Below, in pieces: positions 15,914 through 46,008 of a DNA stretch of 53,211 bases (position 1 is the stretch's first letter; each line of letters begins with the position of its first letter). The stretch lies in the NCBI GenBank assembly GCA_902801485.1, contig CADCIP010000021.1:1-53211 (forward strand), read 5' to 3'. The position numbers and the translations under genes were made by a program. The notes under the pieces are model-generated. The model did not search any database. It saw nothing but the letters and a program-made list of their open reading frames with translations, and was not told where the DNA came from. The DNA is from an uncultured Bacteroidales bacterium (GTDB taxonomy: Bacteria > Bacteroidota > Bacteroidia > Bacteroidales > Bacteroidaceae).

Positions 15914-16000
15914 GGAGAGATGCCAGAGTGGTCGAATGGACCGCACTCGAAATGCGGCGTACTCTTACGGGTACCCAGGGTTCGAATCCCTGTCTCTCCG
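15914..16000 (+). tRNA. tRNA-Ser (anticodon CGA)
   Basis: The 87-base gene has a 7-bp acceptor stem (GGAGAGA with TCTCTCC) and discriminator G. It has an anticodon arm with CGA in the loop (CTCGAAA), a long variable arm (ACTCTTACGGGT) typical of class II tRNAs, and a T arm GGGTTCGAATCCC. The CCA end is not encoded. It reads the UCG codon. Confidence 0.95.
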
Positions 16001-32081: not shown

Positions 32082-34589
32082 TTATTTTACAACTTGTTTC
32101 TTTCCACCTATTATATATATACCCTTCTTAAGTGAAGAATTGTTCGTGCGGCGACCTTGTAAATCGTATATTTCGTTCCCGTTCCCGTTATCGTTTACGT
32201 TAACGTCTGTAATACCTGTTACACTTCCAAATTCGAGGGTGAAGCGGTTGTTATATGTACCAGCTTCTGCATTGAAGGTATAAGCGTTATTAGTCAGTTT
32301 TACACGATTGCCAGTGAGGTGGTCAACAAGTATGAGGTCCTCCTGCTGCCAGCTACCGCCCTTAGGAGCTGCCATACTCAGGGTATAGGTGCCTTGTGCT
32401 GACAACGTTAGGCCGAGGCGGATAATGCCATTGCCAATAGGACGTTCGTTGATACTATAACGTTCTCCGTTCTCTATGGTATAAAATTGAGGTACCTGCG
32501 TGTCAAGGCTCATGAACTTGGTGGCATCGCAGCCATCGTCATAGTCGGTGGTGGCTTGCGGGTTCAGCACGAAGCGGGTTCGGTCGGTCAGTCCTTCGCT
32601 GTCACTTAGGTTCAGGTTGAACACCGTACGCTGGGGGGCAGCCATGCGACGTGAGTCGGCTGAGGCGCGGTCTACCACTGCCAAGCTGTTCTGACGGCCT
32701 TCCAGGGGGAAGGTGATGGCGGCCTGCTTCAGCGACCGCTGCACGAAGAAGGCCTGGCTGGGTTCTAGCACATAGTCATCATCGGTGGGCCGGTAGGTCT
32801 CGTACTGACGATAGAACCTGTTCCAGACGATGAAGGGTCCGTCGTGCTGCATGAGCCGTGTGTCGTAGTAAGCGGGATAGGGGTTGCCAATGAGGTTCCA
32901 CGAGCGGTTGTGCTTGTCCTCGGCAAGGTATTCCTCAAGCTGCACCACGGCTTCGGTCTGGCGGAAGATGTCGTTCTTGTAGTTGTCGTCGATGGCGTGG
33001 AAGGTAATCTCCTCGTTCTGGTTCGAGCACTTCATGATGTAGCCCCGTCCAGCCAGCAGTGTGCCATTGTTGGGCACTCGCTGCCAGGTGTCGTCGAACT
33101 CGGTAGCGGCGCGCTTGGCTCCGTTGTATTTGTAGATCACGAAGTCGCTGCCCTTGGCCAGCTCTATTTCCGAGACGCGGGCGTTGAAGGGCAGGGAGAT
33201 GAAGTTCCAGTAGGTGTAGGAGCCAGTCTGGTAGTTTGTGAAGAAGGTCAGCGACACGCGGTCGGCGCGGATGGGGGCATTGCTGATGATGCAGCCGAAA
33301 ATCTTGTTGCTGTTGAGCCCCGTATAGCTGTCGTTGCCTTTGTAGTAGCGCAGGTCGTAGAAGGCGTGATAGTCGCTGAGCGAGAGTGTGTTGGTGCCGT
33401 TGATGGTGACGGCGGGATAGCCGTCATTGCTACCAAAGATATACGATTTTTCAAGTCGCATGGTGGGATTATAGTCGGCTGGCAGGAAGTCGGGCAGGTT
33501 CAGTTCCATGTCGGTGTAGAAGATGAGATTCGAGGGCAGCTGGGGCAGTGACTTGATGCTGTGCTTGTCCCATCCCACGCTTTGCTTGTATGCATTCAGG
33601 CTGGGCGACGGCACGTAGATTGTGGCGTTGATTTCCTGATACTGGCCGTTTTCGTCGTAACCATAGCCACCCATGCGGGAACTGCTGTCGAACTGGGGCG
33701 GGTTGATGGCGTGGCAACGCACCGTGCGCAGGCTGTTGCAGGGGTAGAATGCTTGTGAGTAGATGGTACGTGTGGTCGTGGGCAGGTCGATAGAGGTGAG
33801 ACCATGACAGTAGGCGAAGGCTGTGCGGTGCAGGTCCTGCAGCCCCTCGGGCAGGGTGATGCTTGTGATTTTGTCGCACCCGCCGAAGGCATAGTCCTTG
33901 ATGCTTTTCAGCGTGGATGGCAGCTGGACGAACGTCAAAGCCTTGCAGCCCGAGAAGGTGCTGGTGCCCAGCTCCTCAATGCCTTCGGGCACGCGGCAGC
34001 CTGTCAGTTTCTTGCACCCGCTGAAAACGCTCTCTCTCCAATTTGTCATGTGGGCAGGTATTCCTATTTGGAACAGGCTGGTGTCGTTTTCAAAAGCACC
34101 CGACCCTAACTCGTCGACCGTCTCGGGCAGGTTGATCCTCGTAATCGACCCGCAGTCCCTGAAGGCAACACTGCCAATGGTCTTGATGCCCTCGTGCATG
34201 GTGACGCTGGTGAGATTCTTGCACTCGGAGAAGAGGCCGTCGCTGACTTCCGTAAGCGTCATGGGCAGCACAACCGTCTTGAGTGCGTCACGTTTTTCCA
34301 AGCCATATCTGGGCATGGTCTCGGTGATGGCCGCGCCCATGTTAAGGGTCACAAGGCTGGTCATGCGATCGCAGATTGTAGTGAGGTCGTCGTCGTTCAG
34401 TGGACCGCTCACAGTGAAGTACTTGACATCGCTGAAGTTCTCAGTCTGAGCGAGAATGAGGTCACCCATTGTGCCTGGTGTTGTGACGTTAATGTTAAGG
34501 GTCTCTTTGTGGTCAGTAGTTTGTGCGTTTACTGATGGAGAAAACGCAAAGGCCATAACCATAACCAAAGTAAAGTTTTTGATTTTCAT
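32082..34589 (-). CDS. BspA-like leucine-rich-repeat surface protein (835 aa)
   Basis: The ATG at 34589 is preferred over one 21 bases upstream, because the signal peptide starts there (MKIKNFTLVMVMAFAFSPSVNAQ). About residues 75-310 are LRR_5 repeats of 23 residues ('LTSVTMHEGIKTIGSVAFRDCGSI', 'LTFVQLPSTLKSIKDYAFGGCDKI'), as in BspA adhesins, which bind host or matrix proteins. The repeats end with a typical YVPSPSLNAYKQSVGW. A large beta-rich region follows, with FISLPFNARVSEIELAKGSDFVIYKYNG, GRGYIMKC and LIGNPYPAYYD motifs. It ends with a sorting tail (YDLQGRRT...KKGIYIIGGKKQVVK) preceded by an NVNDNGNGN linker. It has a canonical promoter and is followed after 16 bases by the giant gene. 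Upstream lies the 34907-35222 repeat array. Confidence 0.88.
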   Translation of the reverse strand: MKIKNFTLVMVMAFAFSPSVNAQTTDHKETLNINVTTPGTMGDLILAQTENFSDVKYFTVSGPLNDDDLTTICDRMTSLVTLNMGAAITETMPRYGLEKRDALKTVVLPMTLTEVSDGLFSECKNLTSVTMHEGIKTIGSVAFRDCGSITRINLPETVDELGSGAFENDTSLFQIGIPAHMTNWRESVFSGCKKLTGCRVPEGIEELGTSTFSGCKALTFVQLPSTLKSIKDYAFGGCDKITSITLPEGLQDLHRTAFAYCHGLTSIDLPTTTRTIYSQAFYPCNSLRTVRCHAINPPQFDSSSRMGGYGYDENGQYQEINATIYVPSPSLNAYKQSVGWDKHSIKSLPQLPSNLIFYTDMELNLPDFLPADYNPTMRLEKSYIFGSNDGYPAVTINGTNTLSLSDYHAFYDLRYYKGNDSYTGLNSNKIFGCIISNAPIRADRVSLTFFTNYQTGSYTYWNFISLPFNARVSEIELAKGSDFVIYKYNGAKRAATEFDDTWQRVPNNGTLLAGRGYIMKCSNQNEEITFHAIDDNYKNDIFRQTEAVVQLEEYLAEDKHNRSWNLIGNPYPAYYDTRLMQHDGPFIVWNRFYRQYETYRPTDDDYVLEPSQAFFVQRSLKQAAITFPLEGRQNSLAVVDRASADSRRMAAPQRTVFNLNLSDSEGLTDRTRFVLNPQATTDYDDGCDATKFMSLDTQVPQFYTIENGERYSINERPIGNGIIRLGLTLSAQGTYTLSMAAPKGGSWQQEDLILVDHLTGNRVKLTNNAYTFNAEAGTYNNRFTLEFGSVTGITDVNVNDNGNGNEIYDLQGRRTNNSSLKKGIYIIGGKKQVVK

Positions 34590-34653
34590 AGTTTTATTTA
34601 ATTGTGACATTCATATTTCAATGAATAACTTGCACTCAAGGGCAACTTCTTTG

Positions 34654-34906: not shown

Positions 34907-35092
34907 AACAGGTAACACCTAACCAGAAATAGTGATGAGCCCGATAACCATGCGGGATGAAAGAGTGTTACCTGTTTGCTCAACAGGTAACTAACAGGTA
35001 ACACAACACCTAATATCATACAATTATGATGTCGAGTTTGGGTGAGTTACCTGTTAGTGAGGTGTTAGTTACCTGTTAGCCAAACAGGTAAC
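34907..35092. repeat. Seven copies of AACAGGTAAC, including two 25-bp palindromes
   Basis: Exact copies in the forward direction start at 34907, 34982, 34993 and 35083; reversed copies (GTTACCTGTT) start at 34967, 35046 and 35068. The pairs 34967/34982 and 35068/35083 each form a perfect 10-bp inverted repeat with a 5-base spacer. Parts of a larger unit (ATAACCAT ... GGGATGAAAG) also occur twice (34944 and 35107). There is no gene here. The array is about 220-430 bases upstream of the BspA-like operon promoter. Confidence 0.9.
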
Positions 35093-35138
35093 ACTGCATG
35101 AGAACCATAACCATCGGGGATGAAAGCCATAAGGGTAC

Positions 35139-35195
35139 TATTAATAGTAGCAGTTGCAAGTATTAATAGTAGCAAGATTTTCTATTAATAGTAGC
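35139..35195. repeat. Three TATTAATAGTAGC copies at exact 22-bp spacing
   Basis: Copies start at 35139, 35161 and 35183. Each is centred on the palindrome TATTAATA, and copy 1 extends to TACTATTAATAGTA. The spacing equals about two helical turns, as in iterons or operator arrays. Confidence 0.85.
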
Positions 35196-35222: not shown

Positions 35223-35294
35223 GAATGTGAAATAATTTGACAAATGTGGTGCCGGTTTCGCGTTCATCTGAAAGTCACTAACCATAGAAAATTT

Positions 35295-35356
35295 ACTGCC
35301 ACGTTAGGCGGTAAAAATTCTCTAACTAAGGAGAAAGTTTTTTCTAACTTGGCAGT
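35295..35356. repeat. Inverted repeat ACTGCCACGTTAG / CTAACTTGGCAGT
   Basis: The 13-base arms (35295-35307 and 35344-35356) match at 12 positions and are 36 bases apart. The structure lies 34 bases beyond the pyrC stop and may end its transcript, or mark a small excised or decayed element. Confidence 0.6.
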
Positions 35357-35390
35357 TATATGGGATAGAAAAGGGTATTTTGAAAAATAT

Positions 35391-36719
35391 TTACATGTAT
35401 GGACAGGTCGCGAATCTGGCGGGTTGACCAAAAACACTGGGGTTTACTTGCGTTCCGTTCCAAACTTGCTGGCCGTTTACATAGGTGCTTTCAACGTGCC
35501 AACGGAAGGTTCTTCCTTCTAACGGACTCCAGCCACAGCGACTTAGTATAATTTCCTTGGTAACCTGCCAAGGTGTGTCGGGACGAAGCAGAACTAAGTC
35601 GGCATGATAACCTTCACGTATGAATCCACGTTTTTCTATTCCAAAGAGACGGGCAGGATTATGGCTCATGAGTTCTACCATACGTTGGATGGTAAGCACC
35701 CCTTCGTCCACAAGGCTCAGCATGGCAGGCAGACTGAACTGTACCATAGGCATTCCGCTCATAGCACGGCAGCATCCGCCTTCCTTTTCGCTTAAGAGAT
35801 GGGGTGCGTGGTCCGTACCTACAACTGTAATTCTGCCATCTGAGAGTGCCTGACGAAGTGCCTGGCGGTCTGCTATGCTCTTGATGGCAGGGTTACATTT
35901 GATGCGTGTGCCTAAAGTGGGGTAGTCCTGATCGGAGAAGAAAAGATGGGCTACGCAGGCTTCTGCAGTTATCTGCTTGTCGTTTGGAGTGAATAAATCC
36001 AGTTCCTTTGCTGTCGTCAAATGAGCTACATGCAGGCGGGCACCTGTTTCTTTGGCAAGTCTGACAGCCAGTTCCGTGCTTTGGTAGCAGGCTTCTGCAT
36101 CGCGAATCTCAGGATGATGAATGACATCCGGGTCTTCGCCATACAGGGCTTTTGCTTCTGCCATTCGCTGGTTGATGCGATTGGTGTCCTCGCAGTGTGT
36201 CATCAGAAGGGTGGGGCAATGGCGGAAGATATTGCGGAGTGCTTCCTCCTTATCTACCAGCATGTTACCAGTGCTGCTTCCCATAAAGAGTTTGACACCA
36301 GGCACGCGATGGACATCAACATTACGGATCTCCTGCAGGTTATCGTTTGTAGCCCCCAGAAAAAATCCATAGTTGACGTGGCACTTCCGGGCAGCTATCT
36401 TATAGCGTTCTTCGAGGAGGGATAATGTGGTGGTTTGAGGAGAGACATTAGGCATATCCAGAACGGTGGTAACACCCCCTGCTGCTGCAGCACGGGTTTC
36501 TGTATCCATGTCGGCTTTGTGCGTAAGACCTGGGTCGCGCATATGTACATGGTCGTCTATGATGCCAGGAAGAAGGAATAGCTTATCTTTAGCATCCTTC
36601 TTGCCTAATGCCTGTGAAGATTTTGTTATCTTGGAGATTACACCATCTTCAACACGGACAGAGCCAAGGAAGGCTTCTCCCTCGTTTACAATAACAACAT
36701 CCTTAATCTCGAAATCCAT
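35391..36719 (-). CDS. pyrC: Dihydroorotase
   Basis: This amidohydrolase closes carbamoyl-aspartate to dihydroorotate in pyrimidine synthesis. The zinc motif DDHVHMRDPG (His57, His59) lies at the N-terminal end of the barrel. It is followed by a GGVTTVLDMPN strand, LHVAHLTTAKELDLF with a further metal His, and GTDHAPHLLSEKEGG with the catalytic Asp. VKLFMGSSTGNML holds the Lys expected to be carbamylated. The length of 442 residues fits the Bacteroidetes form. The C-terminal 20 residues (VNPSVFGQPARFATCPYM) extend past the usual end and look unconserved. Its ATG directly follows the TAA of the upstream mannosyltransferase gene, so the two are one transcription unit. Confidence 0.9.
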   Translation of the reverse strand: MDFEIKDVVIVNEGEAFLGSVRVEDGVISKITKSSQALGKKDAKDKLFLLPGIIDDHVHMRDPGLTHKADMDTETRAAAAGGVTTVLDMPNVSPQTTTLSLLEERYKIAARKCHVNYGFFLGATNDNLQEIRNVDVHRVPGVKLFMGSSTGNMLVDKEEALRNIFRHCPTLLMTHCEDTNRINQRMAEAKALYGEDPDVIHHPEIRDAEACYQSTELAVRLAKETGARLHVAHLTTAKELDLFTPNDKQITAEACVAHLFFSDQDYPTLGTRIKCNPAIKSIADRQALRQALSDGRITVVGTDHAPHLLSEKEGGCCRAMSGMPMVQFSLPAMLSLVDEGVLTIQRMVELMSHNPARLFGIEKRGFIREGYHADLVLLRPDTPWQVTKEIILSRCGWSPLEGRTFRWHVESTYVNGQQVWNGTQVNPSVFGQPARFATCPYM

Positions 36720-45420: not shown

Positions 45421-45469
45421 TAAATCGCTTTATTATTTTTCCGATCGGAAGTAACTTCGAGGCTTTCAG

Positions 45470-45830
45470 ATACAGTATACAGTATACAGTTTCTTCAGTT
45501 GACAGTTGACAGTTTTGTTTTTGAAAACAGGTTTTTGGAATCAGATATCAGATATCAGTTTCCAAAAATGAAAAATGAGGCCACAGCATTTGTTCTTATA
45601 CATTATATTATTATTATTATTATTAATTATATACTATACTATATTATTATATATAATAGTATATATTAAATAGTAAGTAATATGGATGCTTTGGTCAATC
45701 CACGTCTAAAACTCAAAAAAAGAAACTGATATCTGATATAACTGATATCTGAGTCGTTTTTGTGAAAAACAAACTGTATACTGTATACATTTCCTGAAAC
45801 AGAAACTGTCAACTGTCAACTGAAGAAACG
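45470..45830. repeat. Modular microrepeats around an AT-rich core
   Basis: The left side has tandem TATACAG (45470-45490), TTGACAG (45496-45513) and ATATCAG (45540-45558). The right side has their reverse complements: CTGATAT (45726-45752), CTGTATA (45773-45788) and CTGTCAA (45805-45823), in a shuffled order. The core at 45596-45690 is almost purely A and T. There is no convincing gene; a short minus-strand frame through the right side is low in complexity. Confidence 0.85.
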
Positions 45831-45961
45831 TGAAAAAAATGCACTGTCCTTTGTCCCAATTGTCACAAGGAACTGGAGCAAATGCTTCATGTGCATGGAA
45901 AATAGTTGACATTTCAAAAAGGCGATAATGTTCCCTGTTTTTTTCCTTAACCAAGAAAAAC

Positions 45962-46004
45962 TTGCTCCCTCACTGGGAAATTTTTGCTACCACACGTGGG
46001 AGCA
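45962..46004. repeat. Inverted repeat TTGCTCCC / GGGAGCAA
   Basis: The 8-base arms (45962-45969 and 45997-46004) are exact complements, with a partly paired interior, next to the REP-like copy. Confidence 0.5.
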
Positions 46005-46008
46005 AATG

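Follow-up and report, generated by a model that had tools for sequence, protein, structure and literature searches.

Palindromes dispersed between genes are familiar from REP/BIME sequences, which go with RAYT transposases. The C-terminus of the SaPI Rep protein binds iterons, according to the available text of PMC7581432, and PICI origins are described in the accessible part of PMC6092414 as an AT-rich region flanked by two iteron sets. VirE-family (PF05272) domains were predicted to be mobile-element helicases (excerpts of PMC5862659). In the literature searched, DUF3874 was not named in any paper found, and VapE genes between iterons with gene-less copies were undescribed in the retrieved parts of the matches listed.

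The DNA analyzed here, called the window, is a stretch of 53,211 nucleotides from an uncultured Bacteroidales bacterium (contig CADCIP010000021.1), and its source draft genome (G000) comprises 3.6 Mb in 85 contigs. An array of short repeated words in the window is, on balance, probably a gene-less (MITE-like), origin-like member of a family of VapE-DUF3874 helicase-iteron elements. It is close to certain that the array belongs with the repeats flanking VapE genes, and VapE is predicted, as a likely outcome, to bind it. The AACAGGTAAC words are probably helicase docking sites and not a switch for the surface-protein genes. The features of the window are the following.

32082..34610, strand −: BspA-type leucine-rich-repeat protein, 842 aa (PF13306), ATG about 300 bp from the array
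34907..35092, no strand: iteron array, seven exact AACAGGTAAC; recurs at C5, C9, C13, C14, C18, C41, and C42
34907..34916, strand +: outer left iteron; copy-to-copy resemblance ends just beyond it (by eye)
34940..34956, no strand: stem-like CCCGATAACCATGCGGG separating the inner left iterons from the outer one (in some copies CCGATGGTTATCGG)
34967..35002, no strand: inner left iteron set, R-5-R'-1-R'
35003..35045, no strand: array centre, the position of the VapE gene in complete elements
35046..35092, no strand: inner right iteron set, R-1-degenerate R (35057-35066)-1-R-5-R'
35105..35119, no strand: right copy of the stem-like motif, CCATAACCATCGGGG
35136..35195, no strand: B repeats, TATTAATAGTAGC, period 22 bp
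35285..35398, strand +: T module, conserved noncoding (nhmmer E 5.2e-27; itself one of six seeds)
35391..36719, strand −: pyrC-like amidohydrolase, 442 aa (PF01979)
45464..45829, no strand: second iteron array, CAGTATACAG, CAGTTGACAG, and CAGATATCAG runs round an 80% A+T centre
45953..46006, strand −: T module adjoining the second array (nhmmer E 2.2e-8)

Exact AACAGGTAAC words were found at 34907, 34967, 34982, 34993, 35046, 35068, and 35083 in the strand order +-++--+, and two perfect 10-bp inverted repeats with 5-base spacers are made from them. An earlier sequence-only reading had reported the same seven words and both palindromes, and all were located where it had placed them. Its statement that the words exceed chance also held: with up to one mismatch, 12 matches were counted in the window against a mean of 3.4 and a maximum of 7 in 100 shuffles. 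The longer duplicated unit that it described was recovered (34935-34963 and 35098-35126, 83%). An eighth exact word in the window (26744) is isolated. That reading had missed a degenerate site (GTGAGGTGTT, 35057-35066), the conserved module at 35285-35398, and the fact that the array as a whole occurs again elsewhere. By eye, the degenerate site fills out a run of inner words with an 11-bp period, i.e., about one helical turn. When Rfam covariance models were run on the window and three loci, the arrays had no match, and the only match in the four sources searched was a tRNA at 15914-16000.

Exact AACAGGTAAC occurs 51 times in the draft genome, against nine occurrences of the reversed control word. 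Eight arrays of 2-7 words hold 39 of the 51 (C5 4, C9 6, C13 4, C14 3, C18 6, C21 7, C41 2, C42 7), and the other 12 are one word in a decayed array (C1), two at a VapE-type gene (C77), and nine isolated words, equal to the reversed-control total. The best six other copies in a DNA search with the array had 79-85% identity, and weaker ones followed lower down. Among 84,980 species genomes, the exact palindrome was found in ten stretches, eight in RGIG3417 (goat reticulum) and two in RUG13701, and also, probably by chance, in one cyanobacterial draft. A stricter three-word search of 41 genomes, the source included, matched no genome besides the source. The arrays are short, gene-less, and multi-copy with conserved inverted parts, as is typical of MITEs. 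The three functions offered by the sequence-only reading (operator, phase-variation or recombination site, non-autonomous repeat element) were supported in part, the repeat element being the best fit, and its suggestion that a whole site had been duplicated was right in spirit.

A cooperative operator of the BspA-like surface-protein operon would agree with the location of the array, which precedes the 842-aa gene by about 300 bp. The genome-wide word count speaks against this proposal, since 2-7 exact copies lie in seven other arrays beside different neighbour genes, and two of these arrays (C5 and C14) adjoin a VapE helicase gene. As the array is not confined to the operon, the operator reading is unsupported and is considered very improbable.

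Eleven arrays were aligned, six from G000 and five from RGIG3417, with C5, C14, C1, RUG13701, and several RGIG3417 arrays left out. Word columns were 98% conserved and other columns 83% (p 3e-12), and 61 of 70 word columns were invariant compared with 41 of 116 others. The 5-bp and 1-bp gaps separating exact words were kept in nine of the 11 arrays; the exceptions were C41, with too few exact words, and L220, with one base lost. The right outer end varies among copies, some of which run into GGTATATGTT- or GTGAGGTGTT-like words, and the copies therefore look chimeric. The loop of the left stem (34940-34956 and its equivalents) is ATAACCAT/ACAACCAT in 8/11 arrays and ATGGTTAT in 3/11, as if flipped. 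A site for phase variation or site-specific recombination, one of the options of the sequence-only reading, would suit the perfect palindromes, the strong single-strand fold of the array (z -6.7), and the two loop forms. It is hardly credible, given that no inverted alternate state was visible in the single draft and that no recombinase was noted among the neighbouring ORFs listed, some of which were scanned.

In G000, a helicase gene with VapE (PF05272) and DUF3874 (PF12990) domains has the C14 array before its start and the C5 array after its stop, C14 and C5 being separate contigs that each cut the gene at the contig end. The array may share its ends with an autonomous partner, A words standing at a VapE start (C14) and a VapE stop (C5) on different contigs. 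In Pfam, the C5 and C31 fragments were above the PF05272 cut-off, and for PF12990 C5 was above and C31 below. Four close VapE 3' ends were found in this genome and are followed by different word families (C5 GTTACCTGTT, C31 GGTTGACGGGAG, C44 GGGTTAGGTGTT, C47 GGTATATGTT); two further matches are distant (C13, C77). For the first three word families, matching 5' ends were found at C14, C29, and C57, with C45 and C48 resembling C57; no 5' end with the fourth (C47) family was found in G000. Several iteron types thus coexist within one genome. The gene ends stop at contig ends, as expected for a repeated gene in a short-read draft, and because every ~400-aa VapE copy in G000 is contig-cut, no complete A-type element is visible in one piece. 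At C77 (L069:3167-4581), a different VapE-type gene of 444 aa carries AACAGGTAAC at its 3' end and inverted AACAGGTAAC about 100 bp further, each word joined to ACAGATGTAACAGAT-like repeats.

Complete elements were found in relatives. Proteins matching at E 1e-30 occurred in 31 of 101 genomes (own included, longer ~700-aa relatives counted too), and 30 loci with a gene start were inspected. The four full-length proteins checked were above the cut-off for both PF05272 and PF12990. In several complete ~400-aa relatives from the genus, the gene is enclosed by inverted iterons whose sequence varies among copies, e.g., three AACACCTAAC words upstream and four downstream at L129, and two ACATATACCT words on either side at L128; the gene is likewise between inverted words at L130, L132, and L137. 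Complete VapE elements also carry a motif similar to the stem-like CCCGATAACCATGCGGG. A word family can recur across species, one being common to C47, L128, L131, and L208. In 29 loci (L153 and loci with short flanks were dropped beforehand), the upstream-downstream flank match averaged 10.0 for own pairs and 1.6 for other pairs (permutation p 5e-5; 1e-4 on logs), with the own partner as the best match in eight loci and not the best in 21, and the L147 match uninspected. Direct-orientation sharing was raised also (4.4 vs 1.6). Arrays were one-sided at L142 and L150 (upstream, nine copies) and at L134 and L136 (downstream, three), and by flank word count some of the loci with a gene start had no array on either side.

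Neighbour genes were compared at 32 loci, where an HU-like family (by eye) was present in seven and every other family in at most three. At seven complete loci, all 24 ORFs of at least 100 aa within the fetched stretch were scanned with Pfam (E 1e-5), and 18 were matched and six unmatched. They included RecA, peptidase U32, dehydroquinate synthase, HipA, DNA methylase, Rnf-Nqr subunits, and glycosyl hydrolases. No transposase or integrase was found among the 24, nor an integrase with an att site or phage-linked genes, six of these ORFs matching no family. The VapE gene therefore stands alone amid varied chromosomal genes. No transposase domain was found in the VapE protein, and none recurs beside VapE.

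The covariation of iterons with the protein was analyzed on ten chosen 3' ends with the word family labelled by eye, other labelled 3' ends being omitted. C-terminal identity was 75% in same-iteron pairs (n = 7) and 58% in other pairs (n = 38), whereas identity of the helicase core was 76% and 81%, respectively. Label permutation gave p 2e-4 for the match between C-terminus and iteron (10 proteins, by-eye labels). In these ten proteins, the core does not track the iteron type and the C-terminal domain does; shared ancestry inside a word family adds to the match and is not separated from it. C5, C31, and L208 have an identical core in the compared stretch (short for L208), three C-terminal domains, and three word families. 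From these sequences, it looks as if the binding domain and its sites were exchanged together.

These data bear on the possibility that the array is a MITE moved in trans by an unrelated transposase or recombinase, with the words as its sites and VapE as a passenger or regulator. Its MITE-like anatomy and numerous gene-less copies are what such an element would display, and the T and B modules beside several array types could be its true end. We regard it as unlikely, however, because the neighbours scanned at the seven complete VapE loci gave no match to a transposase or integrase, just the HU-like family exceeds three of 32 loci, and the words covary with the VapE C-terminus.

The T modules were searched with an nhmmer model that was built on six copies, including four G000 ones. 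The module at 35285..35398 ends close to GAAAAATATTTACA and overlaps the pyrC 3' end. At 35391-35398, where pyrC and the end of the T module overlap, the last codons and the stop of the gene are unlike those of G061, G063, and RGIG3417, which gives the impression that the gene end was replaced. Seven of the eight arrays, C5 being the exception, have a B match no further than about 1 kb away. At the start of contig C17 (L073:29-408), B repeats shortly precede a 74-aa protein, HU-like by eye, for which Pfam and NCBIfam gave no match. The second array in the window consists of three nested word families and lies upstream of a PmbA/TldD-domain gene.

Twenty T modules were found in G000 sequence chosen around arrays and T/B matches, which is part of the genome. 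Arrays were scored by how often a single 9-mer occurs within 450 bp, counting both strands, a rough score in that the top word at C41, C57, and C11 is not the iteron. A score of at least 3 was obtained for 17/20 T modules and 44/300 random windows of the same loci, and at least 4 for 11/20 and 7/300, respectively, in a module set that is biased because several places were fetched for their arrays. Among the eight modules fetched on a T/B match alone (two each at C1 and C3, and one each at C11, C12, C18, and C60), three scored at least 5, two scored 3, and three scored 2, two of the last being at contig ends. T modules adjoin arrays of differing word families (AACAGGTAAC, ACTGTATAC, AACTGTCAA, AACTGAATA, and others).

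Relatives were also searched for sites without the array. The pyrC protein is 84% identical in G061 and 80% in G063, and the DNA of the pyrC region is 90% identical in RGIG3417. The sequence-only reading had looked to close relatives for the array upstream of the same operon. On the pyrC side, no array was matched in 12 same-genus relatives (G061, G063, and ten more) or in RGIG3417 (the RUG13701 region was left out), and the surface-protein gene is unmatched there too, so this outcome bears on the operator in part. An RGIG3417 array (L079) was not present in the roughly 1.5 kb that follow the matching gene in G000, RUG13701, G061, and G063, and the counterpart neighbours differ in all three genomes annotated by ORF. 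Both the pyrC array and an array of one RGIG3417 locus coincide with synteny breaks. No clean empty site was seen at the C18 locus, the L128 element, pyrC, or L079, where the relatives examined were rearranged and the junctions unreadable, and inspection of five copies by eye showed no target-site duplication, although their ends are not fixed and clean empty sites are lacking. What is established is dispersal of the arrays, not insertion. Homologous small genes lie beside arrays in two species (L064:7398-7910 at C13, and L079:3083-3583), the C13 gene being just over the PF18451 (CdiA_C) cut-off; as this neighbour is common to both, the C13 and L079 arrays may be orthologous.

The favoured reading of the window array as a gene-less, origin-like member of the helicase-iteron family can be put as a mechanism. 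A complete member would be one ~400-aa VapE-DUF3874 gene with a set of short iterons on each side, the two sets being inverted. The array iterons would be bound in trans by the DUF3874 domain of sister copies, hexamers loading on both inverted sets would open the DNA, and the array would be a present or former origin, as in SaPI/PICI islands. Iterons that cause plasmid incompatibility are a precedent for another role, namely initiator titration, in which gene-less arrays absorb VapE and restrain or exclude sister elements. The gene-less copies are rich in words, and both words and spacing are conserved, as titration would have it; still, nothing points to a benefit, and this improbable role would be compatible with the favoured origin-like reading. 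A broader and rather doubtful proposal is that the family represents a transposase-free class of mobile element, in which the spreading unit in chromosomes would be a single initiator helicase plus its own iterons, probably carried by over-replication and recombination. It would produce gene-less satellites and diversify as the C-terminal binding domain is swapped together with the iterons. If copying needs the helicase alone, this would be a new route of DNA spread. Under the favoured reading, the uncharacterised domain DUF3874 acquires a testable function in sequence recognition, and an intergenic repeat family of rumen Bacteroidales is explained. The reading also supplies natural combinations of a binding domain with its site, seemingly swapped together in evolution.

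Wider relatives of the helicase were compared in databases. In PHROGs, the matches were to DNA helicase and primase families, the best at E 4e-48, and PADLOC gave nothing beyond two matches at E 0.02. Viral contigs had no match to the exact palindrome; a search there for one VapE protein confirmed none of ten candidates, and an alignment search found four relatives with 34-36% identity. DUF3874 was found in 5/198 genomes of the order at E 1e-5 (own included), which is no estimate of its spread, as the Pfam model misses members. Of the four DUF3874 places outside G000, one (L280, a 701-aa gene) is closely followed by nine ATCTGCAAC words arranged in opposed sets, and no array was seen at the other three. 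Among Bacteroides, Parabacteroides, and viral copies (L270, L271, and L272 left out), arrays were seen at L268 and, downstream, at L284 (four words; L267 is alike in sequence by eye), and none was seen at L269, L286, or L287.

Compared with known systems, the array resembles REP/BIME in having palindromes dispersed between genes, but it is longer, ordered, and linked to a helicase gene. Like the BrickBuilt MITE of Porphyromonas gingivalis, it is a gene-less multi-copy intergenic repeat of Bacteroidales, whereas the BrickBuilt units are 23-nt tandem repeats without spacers, and its abstract mentions no helicase partner (PMC4596501). Proteins annotated as BT4734/BF3469 family are VapE-like and lie amid varied genes, but they are ~690 aa long with an additional N-terminal half; a Bacteroides finegoldii copy of this type is flanked by eight CTGACAATA words, five before the gene and three after it. 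The SaPI/PICI replication module is also similar. An alignment of 28 of the 30 proteins (L133 and L153 left out) retained the Walker and arginine motifs by eye, and its profile convincingly matched a single solved structure, 7pds (E 1.1e-19; next match E 0.21), which is entered as 'Similar to D. nodosus vapE' and which we take to be the staphylococcal island (SaPI) initiator, or Rep. Unlike those islands, the seven complete loci showed neither an integrase nor packaging or other island genes, sites lie on either side of the gene in some of the closest relatives, and gene-less copies are numerous per chromosome. As for an AT-rich region, the window array centre (35003..35045) has 65% A+T, the same as the intergenic region around it (65%), and the second array centre 80%. 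The systems share a VapE-type helicase homologous to 7pds and two opposed iteron sets beside its gene, and here the C-terminal domain tracks the iteron type.
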